Assembly (NCBI GenBank): GCA_001873285.1
Contig: MNYV01000062.1
Coordinates: forward strand, 1 to 19,286
Direction of reading: 5' to 3'
DNA: 19,286 nucleotides
Source of the DNA: Nitrospirae bacterium CG2_30_53_67
Lineage (GTDB): Bacteria > CG2-30-53-67
Part shown: positions 244 through 15,858 of the stretch, one piece after another
Numbering within the stretch: the first letter of the stretch is position 1
Layout: each line of letters starts with the position of its first letter
Notes under the pieces: generated by a model
The model's input: only the letters and a program-made list of their open reading frames with translations
The model's database searches: none
What the model was told of the DNA's origin: nothing
Translations under genes and position numbers: made by a program

Positions 244-615
244 TCAGTGGATGTACTTCTTGACCACTTCCAGAAGGGTATGGGACTGGATCGGTTTGGC
301 GATATAATCGTTTGCGCCCAGGGCGAGACCTCTTTTCTTGTCTTCTTCAGCGCCTTCGGTGGTGATGATGATGATCGGGATGCTCCGCTTCTTTTCGTCG
401 TTTCGTATTAAACTGACGAGCTTCAGCCCGTCCATAACCGGCATGTTGATATCGGTCAGGATCAGATCGAAGTTCTGACCGGAGAGTTTCTTCCATCCGT
501 CGACGCCGTCCGTTGCCTCCACCAGGCTGCAATCAGAGAGCCTTTTGAGGGAGAAGATGATCAGCTGCCTCATGGTGGGCGAGTCCTCAACGATCAGAAT
601 GTTGTGCTTTGCCAT
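244..615 (-). CDS. cheY: Stand-alone CheY-like response regulator
   Basis: This is a single-domain receiver of 123 residues, the normal CheY length, with no output domain. The acidic pocket (E10, D11), phosphoacceptor D55 in LTDINMP, switch Thr85/86 and conserved Lys107 in the AKP motif are all present, so it should be phosphorylatable, presumably by the CheA of this cluster. The start is chosen at 615 because AAGGAG lies 8 bases upstream. It is the last gene of the cluster, 58 bases after the GAF-domain gene. It is clearly related to the other CheY at 15939-16313 (both have T-D-I-N-M-P and ITTE/VTTE-type segments) but is not identical. Whether it acts on a flagellar switch, acts as a phosphate sink or has another partner cannot be told. 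The absence of flagellar genes nearby argues against assuming motor control. Confidence 0.93.
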   Translation of the reverse strand: MAKHNILIVEDSPTMRQLIIFSLKRLSDCSLVEATDGVDGWKKLSGQNFDLILTDINMPVMDGLKLVSLIRNDEKKRSIPIIIITTEGAEEDKKRGLALGANDYIAKPIQSHTLLEVVKKYIH

Positions 616-1675: not shown

Positions 1676-2755
1676 TTATAGGTTGTCCCCGCTGCAGATG
1701 GATAAAATCTTGTCCGTGATGTCTCCCAGGCCGAGAATATGGTCAACGACCCCTTCTTTGATCGCTTCAGCCGGCATCCCGAAGACGATGGCCGTCTCCT
1801 CGGACTCGGCTATGGTTTCCCCGTTCATTTGCTTGATGGCCTTCATGCCGAGTTTCCCGTCATCCCCCATACCGGTCAGAAGGACCCCCAATGTCCGGCT
1901 TCCATAAATGGCGGAGGAGGATTCCATCATGGCATTGACCGAGGGGACGAACTTATCCTGTTCTCTCTGCGGGCCGAGGGTGACGCGGACGATGCCGTTA
2001 TACTTTTTGAGGGTCATGTTCATCCCGCCCGGCGCGATCAGAACAAGGCCCGGGCGGACTTCATCCCCCTCTTCGGCTTCTTTGACGTCCAGTGCGCACG
2101 ATTCGTGCAGGCGCTCGGCAAAGAAGTGGGTAAAGCTTGGAGGCATGTGCTGGACCACGGCAACGGCTGAAGGAAAGTTTGCCGGCAGCCGCGTCAGAAT
2201 CGTCTGCAGGGCGGGAGGGCCGCCCGTGGATGCGCCGATCGCCACCAGGTCGATTTGAGATTTTGAAGCCGAAGCAAGAACCGGCGCCTCCTTCACCCGT
2301 TGAACCCGGCGGGAATCCAGCCGGTCCGTGATTTTGTCTATCTTAAGGCTTCGAAGCGCCGTAAGTTTCTCGATGAGCGTCTCCTGGATGAAGGAGAGCT
2401 CCGGGCTGATCTTCCGGGTCGGTTTTACAATAAAGTCAACAGCGCCGAGATCCAGGGCCTTCAGAATATTCTCCTCGGCGCCTGCAGAGCTGATGATCAT
2501 GACGGGCGTGGGCTGGTTGTGCATGAGCCAGCGAAGGAACGTGAACCCGTCCATCTCCGGCATCTCAAGATCGAGTGTAATAAAATTCGGCTTAAGACGG
2601 ATAGCCATGGTAATGGCTTCCTGCCCATTGTAGGCGGTGCCCACCACCTCTGAATCCGGCAAAGAGTTCAGGGCGTTCGAGATGAGGCGCATCGAATAAG
2701 CGGAATCATCCACCACCAGGGCCCGAATATGTTTCAAGGACATTTTCTCCGGCAT
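1676..2755 (-). CDS. cheB: CheB: receptor glutamate methylesterase/deamidase
   Basis: CheB removes methyl groups from receptor glutamates (and deamidates glutamines) to reset signalling; phosphorylation by CheA activates it. Here a receiver domain (residues about 9-130; acidic D16/D17, phosphoacceptor D62 in TLDLEMP, Lys in the VKPT motif) is joined by a linker to the esterase domain (about 165-359). The catalytic Ser (AIGASTGGP), His (VVQHMPP) and Asp (LTGMGDDG) are all visible. Usual enzymes read PGGxHM where this one reads PGGMNM; that His is not part of the triad. The 359-residue length is normal. The start at 2755 is preferred (AAGGA 11 bases upstream); the in-frame ATG at 2794 has no ribosome site, and the ATG at 2743 is also possible. 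cheR lies 338 bases upstream across a repeat tract, so cheB may be transcribed separately. Confidence 0.95.
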   Translation of the reverse strand: MPEKMSLKHIRALVVDDSAYSMRLISNALNSLPDSEVVGTAYNGQEAITMAIRLKPNFITLDLEMPEMDGFTFLRWLMHNQPTPVMIISSAGAEENILKALDLGAVDFIVKPTRKISPELSFIQETLIEKLTALRSLKIDKITDRLDSRRVQRVKEAPVLASASKSQIDLVAIGASTGGPPALQTILTRLPANFPSAVAVVQHMPPSFTHFFAERLHESCALDVKEAEEGDEVRPGLVLIAPGGMNMTLKKYNGIVRVTLGPQREQDKFVPSVNAMMESSSAIYGSRTLGVLLTGMGDDGKLGMKAIKQMNGETIAESEETAIVFGMPAEAIKEGVVDHILGLGDITDKILSICSGDNL

Positions 2756-3093
2756 CTCTTGGTCTTTCCTTCTAATATCCGGTTCTTCTCCCATCTATCG
2801 GGTGAAAAAGGTTACGCTTCGCGTGTACCGCTTTTCTCCATTTTTGTCGTTAGATCCCGGCATCTCCTTGAATCTATTCTTGACGGGCCGGGACCGTCTG
2901 CGACGGCTGCTACACTGAAGTATCTTGGGGTCCCAGGGGTCCAGGGGTCAAGGATTCAAGTGAAATACTGAAACACAAGCAAAATCTCCAGAGAAAAACC
3001 CTTAAACCCTAGAACCCCCGGCCCCTTATTTTTTTAGCACTTCACTTGACCCCTGGAATCCTTGAACCCTTGACCCCTGATTTTTTCACCCAC
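2756..3093. other. Intergenic region cheR-cheB with short GGGGTCAAG-type repeats
   Basis: No gene is supported in this 338-base gap. Positions 2934-2969 (plus strand) and 3036-3080 (minus strand) carry versions of the same words, CAGGGGTCAAG, GATTC and AAGTGAA, in opposite orientation. The minus-strand copy contains CAGGGGTCAAG twice, so the plus-strand copy looks like a shortened version. Between them lies C-rich sequence with AACCCT/GAACCC words. Minus-strand RNA could fold into a long imperfect hairpin just after cheR. No convincing promoter for cheB was seen. Confidence 0.6.
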
Positions 3094-3936
3094 TCACGGC
3101 TTCTGGTACACCATGTCGTTTTTCAGGTGTTTGAGACGGAACGCCGTGGACAGGTTGATCAGGGATTCCGAATGACCGACGAGGAGGTAGCCTCCTCCGT
3201 TCAGTTGTCTCTCAAAATGCGATATGACGTTCTTTTTGGCTTCCTGATCGAAATAGATGATGACGTTCCTGCAGAAGATGACATCCATCTTCCCGAGCAG
3301 AAATATCTTGGTGCTGTCGAAAAGGTTCAGGTATCCGAAATTGACCAGTTTTCTTACCGGGTCGATGATCCTCTTTTTATCATTGGCATCCATAAAGTAT
3401 CTCCTGATGTATTCTTCCTTGGTGGTCCTGAAAGAAGACTTGCCGTATTCTCCTTTCCTCGCAACCTGCAGGACGCGGTGGCTGATGTCGCTTGCGAAGA
3501 TTTCGACGTCCCATCCGCTGAAGAGTTGAGATTCGAGAATGAGCATGGCGATGGTATGGGGCTCCTCGCCGGTTGAACATCCTGCGCTCCAGATCCTGAG
3601 AGACCGGTCCCCCTGCTTCATCTTCTTCTCCTTGAGTTCCTGGAGGATCTCTTCAGAGAACGCCTTGAGCTGTTGTTCCTCTCTGAAGAAGTAGGTCTCA
3701 TTGATCGTCAGGATATCTATGATGGAGCTGAGTTCATCGGATCGGTTCTTATCGTACATGAGGAAATAGTAATAATCCTGGAAATCCCTGAGCTGGTGCA
3801 TGGAGACACGGTTGGACAGGCGCTTCTCAAAAAAGTATTTTGAGTTGTCGTCGAATGTAAGGCCGCAAAACTTGTAAATGAGCTCTCTCATCAACCGATA
3901 GGTGGAGTCGCTCATGGAATAGGTCTGATCGAACAT
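3094..3936 (-). CDS. cheR: CheR: chemoreceptor glutamate methyltransferase
   Basis: CheR transfers methyl groups from S-adenosylmethionine to receptor glutamates. The 280-residue protein has the all-helical N-terminal domain (about 1-85) followed by the catalytic domain. The family signatures are in order: INETYFFRE (about 79-87), the SAM-binding loop WSAGCSTGEEP, FASDIS, the motif FCRNVIIYFD, and the C-terminal GHSESL. The length is that of a plain CheR, with no TPR extension. It has no visible defect; HT replaces the more common YS after GEEP. It follows the HEAT gene with no gap (TAG of that gene touches the ATG), with GAGG 6 bases before the start, so translation of the two is likely coupled. 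Neither receptor of the cluster ends in the NWETF-type pentapeptide, so tethering by that route is not expected. Confidence 0.96.
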   Translation of the reverse strand: MFDQTYSMSDSTYRLMRELIYKFCGLTFDDNSKYFFEKRLSNRVSMHQLRDFQDYYYFLMYDKNRSDELSSIIDILTINETYFFREEQQLKAFSEEILQELKEKKMKQGDRSLRIWSAGCSTGEEPHTIAMLILESQLFSGWDVEIFASDISHRVLQVARKGEYGKSSFRTTKEEYIRRYFMDANDKKRIIDPVRKLVNFGYLNLFDSTKIFLLGKMDVIFCRNVIIYFDQEAKKNVISHFERQLNGGGYLLVGHSESLINLSTAFRLKHLKNDMVYQKP

Positions 3937-6001: not shown

Positions 6002-6826
6002 TTACGAAATCCCATGCACGGTCCTGTTTTTATTCATCAGGGCTTCAATTTCATTCTGAAGCAGCCTTCTGCAGTAATCCGGCTGGAACTCCGTAAACCG
6101 CTGCTTCATCATCTCCGCGCCCTCCTGCAGTTCCGGGGCCAGTCTCTTTTCAAGATCGCCGTTTCTGATCCCCTCTTCCACCTTCTTCTGGTTGTAAAGT
6201 GCGATATCGGAGATGATGATCCTGGCCAGCCGCTTGCTCTTGTTCCTGACCTCTTCAGGCAAGGTCTCCTCGAATGTCCGTTCTTCAACCCCTGACTTCC
6301 GGACGGGTTCCACCCTGGCCGCCTCCTCTCGGAACCGGCCGGGCAGAAGGTTTCGCACCTTGTAGAGAAGTTTATCCTGGATATGATGGGCTTCGATGTA
6401 GTCGTCGGCGCCGTACAGGGATTCGGGTAATCTCTTGTAGCGGGCCTTGTCGTAGACGGCCGTTAAAAGGATGATGCGGATGTCCTGCGTCAGGGGGTCC
6501 GACTTCAGGATCTCCGCCAGCTCAAAACCGAATATCTTCGGCAGCGCCACATCCAGGATGACCAGGGAGGGATGAAGCCGGCGGATCTTTTCAAGCGCCT
6601 CTTCACCGTCTTTCGCAAAGATGAGATCAAAAGGTTCCATCTCAAAGAGATCCCTGATGGATGAGCAGAAGTCCGCGTCTTCCTTCCCGACCAGGATCCT
6701 CGGCCTTTCCGATGCAATGGTAAAGACATGCTTGCAGCGGGAGCAGCGCAGACGGATCTCCCGTTTGGTGAACTTGGACGGATCGATCTTGTAGCGGGCC
6801 CCGCATTGCTCACATTGTATAATCAT
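6002..6826 (-). CDS. MJ0042-type zinc-ribbon plus degenerate receiver domain protein
   Basis: The 274-residue protein starts with a zinc ribbon (Cys5, Cys8, Cys28, Cys31; residues 1-36) of the MJ0042 type. A receiver domain follows (about 42-160): the phosphoacceptor Asp92 (VILDVALP) and Thr in ILLTA are kept, but the usual Lys-Pro is replaced by Glu-Ala (DDYIEAHHI) and the acidic pair reads E49-D50 after GK. The C-terminal 110 residues are helical, with a segment ARIIISDIALYNQ. No DNA-binding output domain is evident; the ribbon may contact nucleic acid or protein. The start at 6826 (MIIQCEQCG) has GGAG 6 bases upstream and is preferred to the ATG at 6838. It lies 28 bases after the second receptor gene and 61 before the HEAT gene. 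Function beyond a likely signalling role in this cluster is not known. Confidence 0.82.
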   Translation of the reverse strand: MIIQCEQCGARYKIDPSKFTKREIRLRCSRCKHVFTIASERPRILVGKEDADFCSSIRDLFEMEPFDLIFAKDGEEALEKIRRLHPSLVILDVALPKIFGFELAEILKSDPLTQDIRIILLTAVYDKARYKRLPESLYGADDYIEAHHIQDKLLYKVRNLLPGRFREEAARVEPVRKSGVEERTFEETLPEEVRNKSKRLARIIISDIALYNQKKVEEGIRNGDLEKRLAPELQEGAEMMKQRFTEFQPDYCRRLLQNEIEALMNKNRTVHGIS

Positions 6827-6854
6827 GAAAAACTCCATGTCAAAAGCCGGACGG

Positions 6855-9734
6855 TCAGGCCGTTTCTCTCTCCGAAAGGGCCATCATCTCTTCGATGCCC
6901 GCATAGTCTTTGTCCTCGGCAGGGATAAAGCAGTTATACTCGTATTCGACGGCTTTAATAATATTCCGATCCTCGGTCTTCTCCTCGTCCAGATGGAGCA
7001 GGGCCTGGGTAAGCGCCTCCGCTGTTTCCGGATCAAGGTCCTGCCTGACGCAGAAATTGAACTCCGGGATGTCGTCGGAGACTTTCAGTATCTTCAGACC
7101 TTTGGAGACGAACTTGTTGGCCATGGGCTCCAGCAGACCGCCGGCATCTACGTCCCCGTTGACAATCGCCCAGGCCACTGCATCATGGCGGCCGAGAAAT
7201 GTGTATTCCCTCAATTCCGAAAGGGGAATATTTTCTTTGAGCAGCATGGCCTTCGGCACGAGATAGCTGGACGTGGATTTTTTGTCGCCGAACCCGAATT
7301 TCTTCCCTTTGATTTCAGAAACCGACCGGATATGAGAGACCTCCCTGACGGCAATCACGGAACGGTAGAACGGACTGTGGTTCCGTACGGCCTTGAGGAT
7401 GACCCGGCTTCCGTAGAGTTTTTTGGCTTCCAAATAGGTGGATGGCGTCATATAGGCGATGTCTGTTTTTCCGGTACCCAGGTCCCGGATGGCGCTTTCG
7501 AAATCCTTGGCTACGAGGATCTGGACCTTCTTTCCCAGTTCCTTCTGCAGGCGCCGCGCCAGCGGGGTGAACTTGATCTGCATCTTGACTTCAGACTCCA
7601 GGGGGACGACTCCCAGGACGATCGGCTTTTCCTCGGAGATGAAATGAAAATTGTGCACCTCTTTCTGCAGTTCCTCGTTATGAATGGCAAGAGAGCCGAT
7701 CGCCGTATTCAAGTCGTCGGTCAGGTTCATGTTTTCTTCCGTAATAATCCGTATCCTTTCAATGGCCCGGCCGATCTGTTCGCTCCCTTTCCTGTGCTCC
7801 TGGATAGCCTTGTTGATCTCCTGGATCTTGTTGAAGAAGTTCTCGATCTCCGCACTGATGATCTTGCTTCCTTTGGTTTCCTCGTTCAGGGATTTTCTGA
7901 GTTCATGAGTGAATTCCCTGAGCTTCTCCACCATCTCCCGGATGATTCCTCCGCCCTTGCTTTGTTCATGGACTGCGGCCGTAATCTGGTGCACCATATG
8001 GTTGATGTTCTGAACCTCGGAGTCCACGTAGGCGACGGATTTCACCTGCTCGATGGCGGCGTTCTCGATCTTACATGACATGTCGCTTGCCTTCCTGGAT
8101 TGATCCAGGATCAGCTCCAGGGCCCGTTTTGTCTCTTCGGACAGGGAAACCCCCTCCTTGACCTGCTTGACGCTCTGGCGCATGGCCTCGGAAACGCCCT
8201 TGGTTTCTTCCTGAACGCTCGAGATGACTTTCTCGATCTGTTCAATGGAGGAAGCGGTCCTTTCGGCCAGGGCCTTGATCTCATCGGCCACCACAGAGAA
8301 CCCCTTTCCATATTCGCCGGCCTGCGCCGCAATGATGGATGCGTTCAATGCCAGAAGATTGGTCTGGTCGGCCACCTCGTCGATCACATTCAGGATATCT
8401 CCGATCTCTTCGGACCGTTGATTCAGGGATTGGATCATCCGGTCCGTGTCCTCGACCGTGCTCCGGATGCGGCTCATCCCCTCGATCGTTTTCTGTACGG
8501 CCATAATTCCCTTCTCGGAGGTTTCCGTGGTGTTCTTCTGAGATAGGGCCGCCGATTCCTTGGCCATTTGTTCCACTTCCTTGATGGATGCATTGATCTC
8601 GGAGACCGACGAAGTCGACGTATCCACCGAAGTGCTCAGTGAGTTCAGATTTTCCTGGATCTGTCCGATGGACACGACCATCTCGTTGATAGAGGATGAT
8701 GAGTTATCCACCAGGCTCAGAAGTTCCTGAACCTGTCCCGAGATCTGATTGACGGAGCTGTCCATCCCCTGGATGGAACTCGACGACTCCTCGGCGGACC
8801 GCGTGAGGCTTTGCACATTGGATCCGATTTCATTCAGGGTGGCGTTCATCTCGAAGGCCGAGGAGGATGTCTCGTCCGTGGCATTGGCCTGGACCCGCGT
8901 CCCTTCATAGATCTCCATGTGGCAGTTGCGGATCAGGCGGGTGGCATTCTCGCAGTTGTCGGCGGAGGCCTCGATCTTGTTGAGGACTTCCTTGTGTTTT
9001 TCAAGAAAACAGTTGAAGAGATAGGCAATCTTGGGGAAGGGATAGATCGAACCGATCCAACCCCTGACATTCAAGGAAATCGTGCTCCCGAGGTCGAAGC
9101 GGTTCTGGTTCAGGAGGATCAGGTTATCCCGAAGGGTCAGGAGGCGCCTCCGTATCTCACCCGCGAAGAAATTCTCCAGCAGGATGACCAGCAGAAGGGC
9201 CGCCGCCGTCATGAAGAAAATCAGGATAGGAGAGAGAGGCCGGTATGCCATAAGCGCTGATAAGGCCGCCTCCTGAGCCTTCGAGGACGCTGTTTCCATA
9301 TTCCCGACTTCATTCAGAAACCCTTGATAGGCGGCGGTGAGTTGATCGAAATGGATTTTGGAGATGTCCTGCTCAAGGAACGTGTCCGTTTCCGAAATAC
9401 GGTCTTTCCACCTGTTCCAAGCGGACTCGCCGAGGCCGTTCAGAAAATCCTTGCTGCGGGATTCTTCAATCAGAGCAGCGGCCTGGTGAAGGGTTTTTCT
9501 CAGGTCCGAGATCAACGACGGGTTCGGGGCGCCGCCAAGCCTCTCGCCCAAGCCTTTCCATGTTTTATCAAGGGAAGAGAATTGGGATGCAAGGGTTTCA
9601 TACTGCTCCACGGTTTGAATGCGTTTCTCCATCACCCTCGATGACTGCGTCTGCTGATAGCCGAGCCACAAAATGAGAGCGCAGAGGATCAAGAATGGAG
9701 CGGATGCTTTCAATCGTTCATTCATCTTCGGCAT
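6855..9734 (-). CDS. Methyl-accepting receptor with C-terminal PhnD-like solute-binding domain
   Basis: This is a 959-residue transmembrane chemoreceptor with an unusual end. Order: membrane helix 1 (about 12-27), a helical periplasmic loop of about 140 residues, membrane helix 2 (about 167-188), a linker without a clear HAMP motif, and a long signalling coiled coil whose hairpin tip lies near 450-480 ([13 protein letters not shown], then [13 protein letters not shown]). A phosphonate-type solute-binding domain follows at about 703-950 (DNA about 7628-6858). That domain shows the family signatures [31 protein letters not shown] and [18 protein letters not shown]. No membrane helix lies between the tip and this domain, so it should be cytoplasmic. 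The start at 9734 has AGGAGG 10 bases upstream; an upstream ATG at 9794 overlaps the previous gene. The gap to that receptor gene is 19 bases. The ligand is unknown. Confidence 0.93.
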
Positions 9735-9753: not shown

Positions 9754-12222
9754 TTATACCTTGAATGTGTCAATTTCACTTTGCAGACGCTCAACCTTTT
9801 CAGCCATGTCGCTGATCGCTTGGGTCATCTCCTGAACCTGCTGGGCATTCCGTTCAGCGATCTGCTCGATGGTTTTGCTGTTGGACAGAACCTCCTGGGT
9901 CTTTTCCGTCTGAGACACGGTGAATTTCGAGATCTCCTGAGTTTTATAGTTGGTCTCTTCAATGGCCTTGGCGATCTGGCCGCTTCCCTTGGCCTGTTCC
10001 TGCATGGCCCGGCTGACATGATTGATCATTTCACGGATCCGCTCGGTGTTTTCAATAATCTGTTTGGATCCGACTTTCTGTTCCTGGGTTCCTTTGTTGA
10101 TCTGGCGCAGAGATTCGGTGATCTTCTCCACCGCCTTCTTCACCATCTGGCTCCCCTTGCTCTGCTCGATGGCCGCATGGGCGATCTCATTGACCATGGT
10201 CCTGGAATGGTCCACGCTCTCCATCATCTGGAGGAGCGCCTCCTTGGCCTGCAGAGAGAGGTTCATTCCACGGGTGATGCTCCCGGAACTGACCTCCATG
10301 GACTGGACAGCCTCCTCAGCCTCTTTTTGGACGCTTCGGATGACTGCTGAAATATCCTTGGTGGAGGCTGCGGACCGTTCTGCGAGGGCCTTGATTTCAT
10401 CGGCCACAACCGCGAAGCCTTTGCCGTGTTCTCCGGCCTGCGCCGCGATGATGGCCGCGTTCAGGGCCAGAAGATTGGTCTGGTCGGCCACCTCGTCGAT
10501 GACCTTGAGGATCTTGCCGATCTGCACGGATTTTTCCCCGAGCCGCTTGATCACCCTGGCGGACTCTTCAAAGGTCTCTTTGATTTTGACCATTCCCTCC
10601 TGGGTCTGGGTCACGGCGGTCATCCCCCCCTCCGCCTTGGAGACGCTTTGTTCGGAAATCTTCAGGGAGTTCTTCGCGTTTTTCTCGACTTCCTGAATGG
10701 AACGATCAATCTCCTCGGTGAATGAAGCCGTCTGGTCCGCGTTGGAAGAAACGGAAACGATGTTGTTTGAAATCTCGTTGATGGAGCCGACCATCTCGGA
10801 AATCGAAGAGGAGGTTTCTTCCACGGCACTGGAGGCATGCTTGGCGTTTTCCGCGACCTCGTCGATGGAGGCGCTCATCTCTATGATGGAGGATGAGGCC
10901 TCCTCCGTATGTGACGCCAGATTTTTTGCATTGTCGGCGACCTGCCGGTTCATCTGGTCCATGGCGGTTATGGAGACGGAGATCTCCTGTAGGGATCCCC
11001 CCTGCTCCTCGGTTCCGGCATTCAATTTTTCCGTATTCCGGGAGATCATCCGGGACGATTCGGAGACGCTCTTCATGGTCTCTTTGATCTCCCGGACGAT
11101 CCCCTGTATGTTGATGATGAAAGTATTCATCCAGTCGGCAAGTTCCTTGATTTCGTCATTAGATTGGACTTCGATATGTCTCGTGAGGTCCCCTTCTCCA
11201 CCTGCAATATCCTTGAGGATATCCACCATGTGAGTGATCGGACGGGTGATCCCCTTGGAGAAAAGGATGGCGATGGCCGGAATCAGAATCAGACAGAAAA
11301 CGCCCACCAGACTGAGTTGTCTGCCCAGATGGTAGACCGGCGCAAAGGCCGTGGCGCGGGGGATGGAGAGGATGACGGACCAGTCCGGCCCCTTCCCGTC
11401 CTTGTAGCCGGAGGCGTGCGCAAATCCGGAGAGATACGTCTTCCCGTCCCTGCCGGATTCCACCAGGAACCCCGCTCCGCCGGCCATGACCTTTTGAAGA
11501 AAGGGGTCGTCAGACGGAAAGAATTTCCGGACGGCGCCTTCGGCTGAGACGAACTGGAAGAGAACGCCGCCCTTATCATCAACGACAGTCAGACAGCCGT
11601 CTCTCAATTCTCCTTCTTTCCCCTCGTTCATGAGTCTAACTGCGCCGGAGAAGCTCTCCCAGCCGAACGTTGAGACAAGGACCCCGATAACCGAGGATCG
11701 GTCCGAGGCGTTATGGATCGGCTGGACGATGCCGATCAGGTTTTCCTGGGCGTTGCCCTGGGCATGGACAGGGCCTATATAAGGGACCCCCTCCATAACT
11801 CCCTTTTGGAACCAGGCCTCTTTTGAGACATCCATCCCGGTCCGGTACTTGTTTGCTGAAGCGATGACCACTCCCTTGGCGTTCACGCAGAAAAGCTCCC
11901 GGTAGAGCCCGGCATGCTTTTCGGAGATCTCCGAAAGGGACGAGGCGATCCTCCCGTCCGGGTCCCCCCTCAGGACGTCCTGCATCACGGCCGGACCGGC
12001 CCATGAGCGAAGGTCCGTGGAGCGTTCATAGAGGTCCCTGTCCATGGAATCGATGACGTACGCTGCGTCCTTCTGAAGGCTCCGGCCGGTCACCTGGCTC
12101 AGGGTGGAGACGCCGACCCTGAAGGCCAGGGTCCCTGCCAATATGAGGGGGATGAAAACCAGAGAAAGGTTCAAGATCAGAATCTTGTGACGTATTTTCA
12201 TGGAAATCATTTTTTTATTCAT
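9754..12222 (-). CDS. Methyl-accepting chemotaxis protein with dCache sensor and HAMP
   Basis: This is an 822-residue chemoreceptor that passes periplasmic ligand information to CheA through CheW. Membrane helix 1 is at about 13-35; the periplasmic sensor (about 36-302) looks like a double Cache domain (segments [58 protein letters not shown]). Membrane helix 2 is at about 303-321, a HAMP domain at about 322-375 ([21 protein letters not shown], then [14 protein letters not shown]), and the signalling hairpin tip near 574-605 ([15 protein letters not shown], then [13 protein letters not shown]). There is no C-terminal NWETF-type tether. The start at 12222 has AAGGA just upstream. It lies 101 bases after cheW and 19 before the second receptor. 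Double Cache domains often bind amino or organic acids, but the ligand here cannot be read from the sequence. Confidence 0.95.
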
Positions 12223-12323: not shown

Positions 12324-12827
12324 CTACTCCATCTTGATGATCTCATCAATGTTCATGATGATCATCATCCGGCCCCTGTATTGCCCTATGCCGGTGATAT
12401 ATTCCGCCTCCAAACCCTTGATCATGGGAGGCGGAGGCTCAATGGATTTCTCAGGGATCTGCGCCGCGCTGGTGATCGCATCCACCAGAACGCCGACCTG
12501 CTCATCGTCATTCTTCAATACGATAATCCGGGTCTTTCCCGTGATTTCCGTCAGCGGGAGGCCCATCTTTTTCTTGATATCGAAGATCGGAACGATGTTC
12601 CCCCTCAGCGAGAGGATGCCCAGGATATACGAAGGCGCCCTCGGAATAGGAGTCAGCTCGAAGAAAGGAGTGATCTCCTTGATTCTCATGATATCAATGG
12701 CGTATTCCTCCTCGCCGAGCTTGAAGCCCATGACTTCCGTCATCCGGTCATGAACGGATTCTGCAGCAGTCTCTTCCATTCCGGCGGCAGGCGCCGCTTC
12801 CTGCTCTTTTGGGGTTTGATCCGTCAT
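12324..12827 (-). CDS. cheW: CheW: receptor-kinase coupling protein
   Basis: CheW links receptors to CheA in the signalling array. The protein has 167 residues: a poorly ordered acidic/alanine-rich N-terminal extension (about 1-28), then one CheW domain with the usual signatures EEYAIDIMRIKEI, LGILSLRGNIVPIFDI and VGVLVDAITSAAQI. The start at 12827 overlaps the stop of the diguanylate cyclase gene by 4 bases (ATGA), and GAGG stands 7 bases before it, so the two are likely translationally coupled. It is the only free CheW in the window, so both receptors presumably use it. The 101-base gap downstream, before the first receptor, contains a short inverted repeat (GGTCTTG/CAAGACC, around 12245-12273) that might modulate read-through. 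Confidence 0.95.
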   Translation of the reverse strand: MTDQTPKEQEAAPAAGMEETAAESVHDRMTEVMGFKLGEEEYAIDIMRIKEITPFFELTPIPRAPSYILGILSLRGNIVPIFDIKKKMGLPLTEITGKTRIIVLKNDDEQVGVLVDAITSAAQIPEKSIEPPPPMIKGLEAEYITGIGQYRGRMMIIMNIDEIIKME

Positions 12828-13804
12828 TTTTCAGCCTCATCCTCATGGACCGTGATGGATTCCATGCAGTCTTTCGACACGGTCACTCTGTTCTTGCCGC
12901 TCTTCTTGGACTCGTAAAGGGCCCGGTCGGCTTCCATGATGACCGTATCAATGGTATCGGTCTTGTTTTCCAGAAAACAGGATATGCCGCAGCTCAGTGT
13001 GACGTTGATCTTGTCTTCGTTGATCTGAAAGGGTTTCCCCGCCACTTCCTTGCGGATCTTCTCGGCCACGTTCTCGGCGCCGGTCAGCGAGACCTGGGGG
13101 AGAAGCACGGCGAACTCCTCACCGCCGTACCGGGCCAGCATGTCCGTGCTCCGGATGGTTTTGCCGATCCGGATGCAGATGTCCATCAGGATCTGGTCGC
13201 CTGCCTGATGGCCGTAGGTGTCATTCAGCGCCTTGAAGTTGTCAATGTCCATCAGCAGGAAGGAGAGTTCCGTCCGATAGCGCTTGGCGCGGCTGATTTC
13301 ATTCAACATCATCTTCATCAGGTGCCTTCGATTATAGATCTGGGTTAAGGCATCGGTGATGGATAAAGTGGTCAGGCGCTTGTTCGCCTCCAGGAGCTCG
13401 TCCTGAAGGAGCTTGAGCTTCAGGTGGAGGCGCACCCTCGCAAGAAGCTCAAAGTCATCGAAAGGCTTGGTCAGGTAATCACTCGCCCCTTGTTGCAGGC
13501 CGAGGTTTTTCTTCTCCTGCTCTTCTTCCGCGGTCAGCATAATGATCGGAATGCCCTTCAATTCCGGATGGCCCTTGATCATCAGCAGCAGCTTGAAACC
13601 GTCGATCTGCGGCATGACCACGTCACAGAGGATCAGATCGATCTTGTGTTCCAGGAGTTTCTTGTAGCCGTCGATTCCGTTCTCGGCTTCATAGATGAAA
13701 TCGAAGAGGCCTTTTTCGGAACTGAGGACCTTCTTGATTTTCGTACGGATGGTTTCCGAGTCATCCACAATCAGAATGGATGCGGTCTGTTTTTCTCCGG
13801 TCAT
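12824..13804 (-). CDS. Receiver-GGDEF response regulator (diguanylate cyclase)
   Basis: The protein has 326 residues. A receiver domain (about 8-125; acidic D14/D15, phosphoacceptor D61 in ILCDVVMP, T91, K113 in LTKPF) is joined by a helix to a GGDEF domain (about 145-310). The active-site motif is GGEEF at 227-231, so the cyclase should make c-di-GMP from two GTP. The product-inhibition I-site is intact (RSTD at 218-221, five residues before GGEEF). LMDIDNFKALNDTYGHQAGD also matches the active family. The architecture is like WspR (or PleD with one receiver fewer), and the gene lies between cheA and cheW, so CheA is the probable kinase. The start overlaps the cheA stop by one base (TGATG), with a G-rich ribosome site 8 bases upstream. 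It is the clearest output protein in the cluster. Confidence 0.95.
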   Translation of the reverse strand: MTGEKQTASILIVDDSETIRTKIKKVLSSEKGLFDFIYEAENGIDGYKKLLEHKIDLILCDVVMPQIDGFKLLLMIKGHPELKGIPIIMLTAEEEQEKKNLGLQQGASDYLTKPFDDFELLARVRLHLKLKLLQDELLEANKRLTTLSITDALTQIYNRRHLMKMMLNEISRAKRYRTELSFLLMDIDNFKALNDTYGHQAGDQILMDICIRIGKTIRSTDMLARYGGEEFAVLLPQVSLTGAENVAEKIRKEVAGKPFQINEDKINVTLSCGISCFLENKTDTIDTVIMEADRALYESKKSGKNRVTVSKDCMESITVHEDEAEK

Positions 13805-15858
13805 CAGAATTTCCCCCCTTGAGTGGATTCCTCAATGAGAGATCCGACGTCCAGGACCAGGACGGCCCTTTTGTCGCCGAGTTCCGTCGCGCCGGCGATC
13901 CCGGGTATTTTCTTCAGCGTTTTGCCGATCGGCTTGATGACGATTTCATGTTTGTCGATGAAGTCGTCGACGATGATGCCGATCTTCTTTTCTGCAAGGC
14001 CCGCCACCACGATCTTCGTCTTATTTTTATTGGAGTGATTGCTTTCCGGATTCAACGGACTCAACCCGAAGATTTCCTGGAGGCGCAGCAGCGACAGCGT
14101 CCGGTCCCTGAGCTTGATGACCTCTCTTTTCTCCACGGTCTGAATCGAGTTCTTCGCTACAATCAGGTTTTCAGAAACGGCATTCAGGGGGATGGCAAAT
14201 ATCTGGTCCGAGCATCGAATGATCAGGGCCGGAATGATCGCCAGGGTGATCGGCAGGGTGATGGTAAAAAGCGCCCCTTTGCCGACTTGGGTTTGGATAT
14301 CCACCATCCCGCCCAGCTTGGTGATGTTCTTTTTGACAACGTCCATGCCGACCCCGCGTCCTGAGATCTCGCTCACCTTTTCAGCCGTGCTGAAACCCGG
14401 CAGGAAGATATACTTCAGAATCTCTTCCTCGCCGGGGGTTTCGCCTTCCTGGACCAGCCCTCTTTCCACGGCTTTCTTTAAAATCTTCTCCGGGTCGATC
14501 CCGGCGCCGTCGTCCTCAACCTCGACGACGACGTGGTTTCCCTTCTGATAGGCTGTCAGCCTGATCATCCCCTCGGCGGGTTTCTTAAGGCGTTTTCGCA
14601 CGTCCGGGGATTCAATGCCGTGGTCGATGGCGTTCCGGATGATATGCATCAGGGGATCGGCGATATCCTCGATGACCAGTTTGTCGAGTTCCGTATCCTC
14701 TCCGGATGTCTTGAAGTTGATCTTCTTGTCCGAAGATTTGGAAAGCTTACGGATCATCCTGGCCAGGCGGTTGAAGATCTGGCCGATAGGGATCATGCGG
14801 ACCTCCAGGACCCCCTCCTGCAGTTCAGCGAGTCTCCTTTCGAGTGAATCGACGGCCTTCTGAAGGTCGCCGGTCAGAGTGGATAAGCCTTGGCGCTGCC
14901 TCATCTCCTTCAGAATCCTTTGCAGCATATTCTTGCTGAGAATCAGTTCCCCGACGAGGTTCATGAGGTTGTCCAATTTGTTGATATCCACCCGCACGGT
15001 CTTCGTGAGTCCACGGATGTCGTTGATGAAACTGTCCTGTTCCGAGGCCTTCTCCATCTGAGGCGCCGGTTCGGCCTTGAGATCCTTGATGTCGCCTTCC
15101 TTGAGATACTGGATCTCGTTTATGGTCGTGTTTTCGTTGGTGACGATCTCCTTGATCTCTTTCTCACCGCATAGGGCGCCCAGGATGATGTTGAACTGGA
15201 TGCCCGCCTCCGGGCTCGTGCCCGTTGAGGGAAGCGTGGTGATGATCTCCCCCTGCTCGGAGAGATCTTTGGTGAGCCGCTGCAGGTCCTGATCAAACGT
15301 GGTCAGATCGAAGTTGGCCTTGATCTCAAAGAGACGAGACCCCTTGCGGACATTTTCCATCAGGCGGTGTTCTTCGTACTCGGTCAAAACCTCCAGGATG
15401 GCTGACGAGAGATTGATATCGTCCAGGCCCGCTTTCTTGCCGGATTCCTCTTCATGGTCTCCGTGAAGGATCTTGTCGATCGTGGATAAGGCCTGAGTGA
15501 TATCCATCTGGTCGTTGCCTTCGCTTCCGATCCGGGTGATCAGGTTGTTGAGGGCCTCAAGGCTGGAGAAGAGCCCGTCCAGGACACGGCTGCTCAGTTC
15601 CAGCTTGCCCAGCCTCAGGCTGTCAAGGAGGTTCTCCAGGTTGTGGCTGAGTTCGGATACCTTGCTGAAACCCAGCATGCCGGACAACCCTTTCAGGGAA
15701 TGCGCGCCCCGGAATATACTGTTCACGACTTCGGGGTTGACGTTGGACTTTTTCATGCCTTCTTCGAGTTTGACAAGATTGTTCCCGATGCTTTCGAGAA
15801 TATCCTCACTCTCGGCAAGAAATTCAGTCACGGCTTTTTCCTGTCCCTTTTCAGTCAT
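13804..15858 (-). CDS. cheA: CheA: chemosensory histidine kinase
   Basis: CheA phosphorylates itself on a histidine and passes the phosphate to CheY, CheB and, here, probably the receiver-GGDEF protein. The domains are in normal order over 684 residues: Hpt/P1 with His53 (GAHSLKG); a P2-like segment around 130-235; the P3 dimerisation helices (DINKLDNLMNLVGELILSKN); the ATP-binding P4 domain with N box (IIRNAIDHGIE), G1 (DDGAGID) and G2 (FSTAEKVSEISGRGVGMDVV); and the CheW-like P5 domain to the end. There is no fused receiver, unlike many FrzE or CheA-hybrid kinases. All key residues seem intact. The start has AGGAG 5-6 bases upstream. The gene lies 80 bases after a stand-alone cheY and overlaps the cyclase gene by one base. 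Confidence 0.97.
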   Translation of the reverse strand: MTEKGQEKAVTEFLAESEDILESIGNNLVKLEEGMKKSNVNPEVVNSIFRGAHSLKGLSGMLGFSKVSELSHNLENLLDSLRLGKLELSSRVLDGLFSSLEALNNLITRIGSEGNDQMDITQALSTIDKILHGDHEEESGKKAGLDDINLSSAILEVLTEYEEHRLMENVRKGSRLFEIKANFDLTTFDQDLQRLTKDLSEQGEIITTLPSTGTSPEAGIQFNIILGALCGEKEIKEIVTNENTTINEIQYLKEGDIKDLKAEPAPQMEKASEQDSFINDIRGLTKTVRVDINKLDNLMNLVGELILSKNMLQRILKEMRQRQGLSTLTGDLQKAVDSLERRLAELQEGVLEVRMIPIGQIFNRLARMIRKLSKSSDKKINFKTSGEDTELDKLVIEDIADPLMHIIRNAIDHGIESPDVRKRLKKPAEGMIRLTAYQKGNHVVVEVEDDGAGIDPEKILKKAVERGLVQEGETPGEEEILKYIFLPGFSTAEKVSEISGRGVGMDVVKKNITKLGGMVDIQTQVGKGALFTITLPITLAIIPALIIRCSDQIFAIPLNAVSENLIVAKNSIQTVEKREVIKLRDRTLSLLRLQEIFGLSPLNPESNHSNKNKTKIVVAGLAEKKIGIIVDDFIDKHEIVIKPIGKTLKKIPGIAGATELGDKRAVLVLDVGSLIEESTQGGKF

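Follow-up and report, generated by a model that had tools for sequence, protein, structure and literature searches.

Several chemoreceptors (MCPs) with a cytoplasmic module at the C-terminus are known, among them DcrH with a hemerythrin module and Azospirillum Tlp1 and Aer with a PilZ module (PMC13401364). In DcrH of Desulfovibrio vulgaris, a periplasmic domain is followed by the MCP hairpin and then by a cytoplasmic sensory domain, while in Azospirillum brasilense the C-terminal cytoplasmic domain of Tlp1/Aer tunes the chemoreceptor via an internal molecule, c-di-GMP (PMC13401364). A related case is CheWS of Treponema denticola, an array protein whose fused C-terminal domain senses the internal metabolite SAM (PMC10653840). 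Solute-binding proteins (SBPs) are described as extracytosolic, and a survey reported that SBP Pfam profiles also match sensor domains and cytosolic proteins (PMC9602780).

The window, a stretch of DNA of 19,286 nucleotides, encodes an MCP that is continued by an SBP domain of the Phosphonate-bd family (PF12974). The order of its parts is that of DcrH, but its module is a PF12974 clamp instead of a diiron oxygen-binding hemerythrin-like module, and the HAMP domain of DcrH was not detected. The PilZ domain of Tlp1/Aer has an unrelated fold, and CheWS carries a CheR-like domain fused to CheW, not to a receptor. In the open papers, no description of PF12974, PhnD or a binding-protein domain at the C-terminus of an MCP was found. 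What looked novel in the original prediction may be so for this combination, but not for C-terminal sensory modules in general, which are already known from DcrH and Tlp1/Aer.

Domain order, junction and topology of the receptor

The MCP-SBP gene is a single unbroken frame of 959 codons running from an ATG at 9734 to a stop at 6855 (Table 1). It is an MCP by its PF00015 hairpin and is encoded together with CheA, CheW, CheR and CheB. The PF12974 match spans the entire profile (1-242 of 242; 206 bits against a cut-off of 27; E 5.6e-61), and NCBIfam model TIGR01098 concurs above its own cut-off. The original description and its coordinates are thus confirmed: the complete PhnD-like domain noted from about residue 703 lies at 707-944, the full signalling hairpin at 424-580, with the tip Glu474 inside the stated 450-480, and the quoted motifs are present as S820-T821-S822 and H850-D851.

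A Kyte-Doolittle scan with a 19-residue window gave only two TM-grade segments, 8-26 (1.77) and 168-186 (2.65), close to the two helices proposed earlier (about 12-27 and 167-188). The third-best peak was 0.97 at residue 226, and the scan of the window protein detected no TM-like segment between the hairpin and residue 703, where a third helix would have contradicted the proposed topology. A HAMP domain usually follows TM2 in MCPs, although it is not obligatory; in the window protein, residues 169-255 had no Pfam HAMP match even at E up to 10. With two TMs and an extra cytoplasmic domain past the hairpin, the protein fits the class of chemoreceptors with C-terminal modules. It does not look like a transporter subunit of the PF12974 type, since the export or lipoprotein signal is absent and the SBP domain directly follows the MCP coil. 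Among the window genes assigned by Pfam or NCBIfam, none encodes an ABC transporter. AlphaFold models of residues 560-959 and 690-959 reached pLDDT values of 38.7 and 33.2, from an alignment of two sequences only (the window protein and L029).

Table 1. Positions of the receptor gene, its parts and the neighbouring che genes in the window.
Feature	Position	Strand	Basis
MCP-SBP fusion gene, 959 aa	6855..9734	-	ORF, Pfam, family orthologs
TM1, residues 8-26	9657..9713	-	hydropathy
Periplasmic domain, residues 27-167, fast evolving	9234..9656	-	without Pfam match
TM2, residues 168-186	9177..9233	-	hydropathy
MCP signalling domain, residues 424-580, tip Glu474	7995..8465	-	Pfam PF00015, E 1.9e-44
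Coiled-coil C-terminal arm, residues 475-702	7629..8312	-	arm-length measurement
Natural MCP C-terminus motif (10 residues, 689-698), fusion junction	7641..7670	-	
PF12974 solute-binding domain, residues 707-944, predicted cytoplasmic	6903..7616	-	Pfam, E 5.6e-61
L712, replaces cap-holding Asp22 of Te_PtxB	7599..7601	-	alignment; PMC5700983
S820-T821-S822, STS oxyanion-binding motif	7269..7277	-	alignment to PtxB
H850-D851; H850 equivalent to ligand-binding His160 of Te_PtxB	7182..7187	-	alignment to PtxB
F892, replaces capping Tyr208 of Te_PtxB	7059..7061	-	alignment; PMC5700983
CheA	13804..15858	-	Pfam, NCBIfam
Response regulator-GGDEF, candidate c-di-GMP output	12824..13804	-	Pfam
CheW	12324..12827	-	Pfam
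Adjacent ordinary MCP, HAMP present, similar C-arm length, without SBP domain	9754..12222	-	Pfam, arm lengths
Zinc-ribbon and receiver protein	6002..6838	-	Pfam
HEAT-repeat protein, 692 aa	3937..6015	-	Pfam
CheR	3094..3936	-	Pfam
CheB	1676..2794	-	Pfam, NCBIfam
CheY-like receiver	244..615	-	NCBIfam

The junction can be placed from the geometry of the coil. Residue 703 lies 229 residues past the tip Glu474; in the neighbouring ordinary MCP, the tip lies 225 residues after HAMP and 224 before the stop. The two receptors are thus length-matched, and the start of the SBP domain coincides with the point at which the neighbour stops. Moreover, the ten residues at the coil end resemble the C-terminus of a stand-alone MCP, as seen in the ten residues before the stop of the neighbour, which indicates that the fusion sits at a natural MCP end. 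In all three lineages with the fusion (see below), the SBP domain starts only after the C-arm is back at the HAMP level, with arms of 229 residues in the window protein, 232 in G292 and 139 in the G166 lineage (measured on L067); in G292 this placement is explicit, as a Pfam HAMP is present. These measurements agree with the proposed position at the membrane-proximal end of the cytoplasmic coil, and the SBP domain should therefore lie in the cytoplasm, beside the HAMP-level coil end.

The hairpin tip of both window MCPs reads NLLALNA(S/A)IIAAQAGE. The common form in MCPs is NAAIEAARAGE, so that a Glu and an Arg that are usually conserved have given way to other residues; the same replacement occurs in the orthologs and in G292 (ILAAQAGE).

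Conservation, recurrence and free relatives

When 60 related genomes were searched, each of the five remaining family genomes yielded a full-length ortholog, with 79, 57, 55, 51 and 50% identity. The fusion is thus present in 6/6 family genomes spanning three genera, and it is absent from both genomes of the other family in this phylum, which is represented by eight genomes. The operon order (DUF4388-GAF, receiver, CheA, receiver-GGDEF, CheW, MCP, MCP-SBP, zinc-ribbon receiver, HEAT repeats, CheR, CheB, GAF, CheY) is kept in the family wherever the contigs reach far enough, and the zinc-ribbon receiver and the HEAT-repeat protein are conserved members of it. In the G005 ortholog (L006:973-3852, G005:C71), the periplasmic region is interrupted by an in-frame TAA (NNLQKEM*SLRYLE), and the remaining open frame of 844 aa lacks TM1; a sequencing error, decay or a real change may account for it.

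Identity across the orthologs was 56-84% in the SBP domain and 52-88% in the coil and tip, compared to 25-58% from TM1 to TM2. Between the window gene and its nearest ortholog (G000 vs G001), Nei-Gojobori dN/dS was 0.427 in the TM-periplasmic part, compared with 0.123 in the SBP domain. The internal SBP domain is more constrained than the external domain.

The recurrence of the fusion was examined with a profile of the C-terminal 400 residues in 386 genomes. Outside the family, coil and SBP were both covered in two more genomes, G292 and G166, and 18/30 genomes of the phylum of G166 carry an MCP-SBP fusion. Together with the five family orthologs, these cases answer the proposed search for the architecture in other genomes. 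It is rare beyond its family, being known from two other phyla, one of them via the single genome G292. Two large phyla, sampled with 398 and 395 genomes, gave no fused copy at a strict threshold; the 395-genome sample returned free SBPs, showing that the search worked there, while the 398-genome sample returned nothing at all, so that the evidence of absence is weaker for it. Scans of viral contigs gave no further homologs.

The two additional lineages differ in what they carry outside. The receptor of G292 has a periplasmic Mcp40H-20-like domain in addition to its HAMP. The proteins of the G166 lineage comprise only about 650 aa, again with the junction at the coil end, and their TM helices lie less than about 10 residues apart, which leaves the SBP domain as the only sizeable candidate sensory domain.

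To place the SBP domain among its relatives, a maximum-likelihood tree of 70 PF12974 domains was used. The fused domains were separated from PtxB and the transporter-linked proteins; loci with adjoining ABC genes (L025, L079, L084 and L089) all fell in the PtxB half. The tree neighbours of the fused domains are free proteins with export or lipoprotein-like signals, most of which adjoin a gene for a sensor histidine kinase of the sCache type (Pfam-checked at seven loci). Unlike the window domain, these kinase-paired proteins are separate and exported, presumably acting outside; AioX and ArrX (PDB) are weaker matches to the window domain. The original prediction had described PF12974 domains as transporter subunits or outer sensor parts, and of these the sensor association stands, whereas the free relatives of the fused domain are mostly not associated with transporters.

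Two free proteins carry the signature of the fused type (PLE...PxF..C), and both directly adjoin an MCP gene. The order is MCP then SBP at L088/L120, where the frames are about 30 bp apart, and SBP then MCP at L112/L121. The former is the arrangement that would give rise to such a fusion. A single origin of the fused domains is neither established nor rejected (p-AU 0.27).

Other arrangements of PF12974 were also observed. The genome of the window also encodes a 724-aa protein (L003:97-2271, G000:C76) with an N-terminal PF12974 domain after a signal peptide-like start, one TM and a cytoplasmic part, in which the SBP domain is apparently used on the outer side. L045, L046 and L049 encode exported proteins of 532-553 aa with a tandem PF12974 pair, and the L045/L051 copy adjoins a sensor-kinase-like gene.

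The ligand pocket

The same Pfam family contains PtxB and PhnD, which bind phosphite and phosphonate for ABC transporters; the window domain is a full-length member and matches Ps_PtxB with a phmmer E of 3.8e-34. In Te_PtxB, phosphite is contacted by Y55, Y100, S130, T131, S132 and H160, while Y208 caps the ligand and D22 holds the cap; the Y208F change nearly abolishes the binding of phosphate and methylphosphonate and weakens that of phosphite more than 1000-fold (PMC5700983). Besides phosphite, PtxB and PhnD also bind phosphate at 47-182 uM (PMC5700983).

The window equivalents are, in order, F745 (Y55), Y790, S820, T821, S822, H850, F892 (Y208) and L712 (D22). The STS and His core of PtxB is present, and the capping Tyr208 with Asp22 is not. 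At the D22 position every tabulated fused copy carries L or I, and at the Y208 position F. In the G166 lineage STG replaces STS and Y55 is kept, and in G292 there is Q at the Y100 position. Within the family, 9/10 pocket-equivalent positions are invariant, compared with 96/270 columns overall. By this comparison, the oxyanion core is largely kept and the cap is hydrophobic.

The window domain thus differs from PtxB and PhnD in its L/F pair, in its fusion to a receptor and in having neither an export signal nor an adjoining transporter. The phosphite or phosphonate reading was weakened, since the cap residues that set the specificity of PtxB are replaced by Leu and Phe (PMC5700983), and a PtxB-type phosphite sensor, considered as the leading ligand idea, is unlikely because the cap D/Y is replaced in every fused copy tabulated. 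Judging from the cap, we guess that the ligand most likely belongs to the small anions that resemble phosphate or phosphonate and have a nonpolar side. Alternatively, the lost Y55 hydroxyl and D22/Y208 cap could mean a weakened or different pocket.

Proposed mechanism, alternatives and output

Taken as a whole, the observations are best explained by a two-input transmembrane chemoreceptor with a cytoplasmic SBP domain and a periplasmic domain, and we consider this reading probable. An ordinary MCP is continued in frame by a mature SBP of the sensor type without its export signal, which places the SBP in the cytoplasm. The second, internal input envisaged in the original prediction is likely, because conservation is higher in the SBP domain than in the periplasmic one and because the G166 lineage has almost no periplasmic loop. 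We infer that the SBP domain would close on a small internal compound bearing an oxyanion, that this closure would shift the helix packing of the C-arm near the membrane and thereby change the activity of CheA, and that the poorly conserved periplasmic domain would give a second signal. The receptor may work in a joint array with CheW, CheA and the neighbouring MCP, which matches it in length. A bolder version holds that a periplasmic-type SBP, moved inside by C-terminal fusion, gauges an internal phosphorus-like anion, so that outside and inside signals are compared in the window receptor and the inside alone is read in the second phylum; we regard the case for it as evenly balanced.

Four other explanations were weighed against the two-input receptor. 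Inorganic phosphate or another ubiquitous internal oxyanion, bound with low affinity, might report phosphorus status to pili and c-di-GMP, which is a narrower form of the same reading. The STS-H core is kept, and as PtxB and PhnD bind phosphate at micromolar levels, a low-affinity phosphate sensor would be a short step (PMC5700983); but Phe stands in every fused copy tabulated at the position where Y208F essentially abolishes phosphate binding in Te_PtxB (PMC5700983), and this version seems unlikely to us. We find it still less probable that the domain no longer binds a ligand and has become a structural or docking module, acting for instance as a spacer or holding the operon's zinc-ribbon regulator or HEAT-repeat protein. 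The cap and Tyr55 equivalents do differ from the PtxB pattern, and unusual partner genes are kept beside MCP-SBP in the family. However, in the stretches read from the G166 lineage no such genes were apparent beside the receptor gene, and both the core (STS/STG and His) and the new L/F cap are conserved inside each of three lineages and between them. Because this cap is also common to two free exported relatives, a specificity type is likelier than decay.

Export of the SBP part through an unrecognised internal signal or a third helix, with an external ligand, is very improbable. It would agree with the signals of the free relatives and with the hydropathy of some G166-lineage proteins, which near the junction shows a peak of moderate height (1.34-1.54). 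That peak, however, covers the linker and the first beta strand and is below the TM level, no signal peptide was seen at the listed junctions of the fused proteins, and the window protein has no TM-grade segment past residue 186. An artefact in which a frameshift, misassembly or gene prediction joined two genes might be suspected, as the windows are draft-genome contigs; it is refuted by the same in-frame fusion in six independent genomes, which represent three genera, and in two further phyla, and we give it practically no credence.

For the two-input receptor, the conserved and recurrent placement of an SBP at the membrane-proximal inside suggests that the clamp is reusable as an internal gauge. 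If this is true, one receptor could compare a signal from outside with one from inside. The protein, especially in its form of about 650 residues, also offers a compact system in which to ask how a signal from the C-terminus travels to the kinase-control tip, a question not yet settled for DcrH (PMC13401364).

The genome, which is 95% complete, gave no match to flagellin or FliG, and three PilT-type ATPases scored over the curated cut-off. The receiver-GGDEF gene lies between the CheA and CheW genes. Judged by gene content, the output of the array is probably type IV pili and/or c-di-GMP; the receptor would then act on pili and/or on the response regulator-GGDEF enzyme of the operon, not on flagella. 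In G387 (L125:8951-11500), frames that by eye resemble phosphate butyryltransferase and then acetate/butyrate kinase adjoin the MCP-SBP gene, and these neighbours, in a single case, hint at acyl phosphates.
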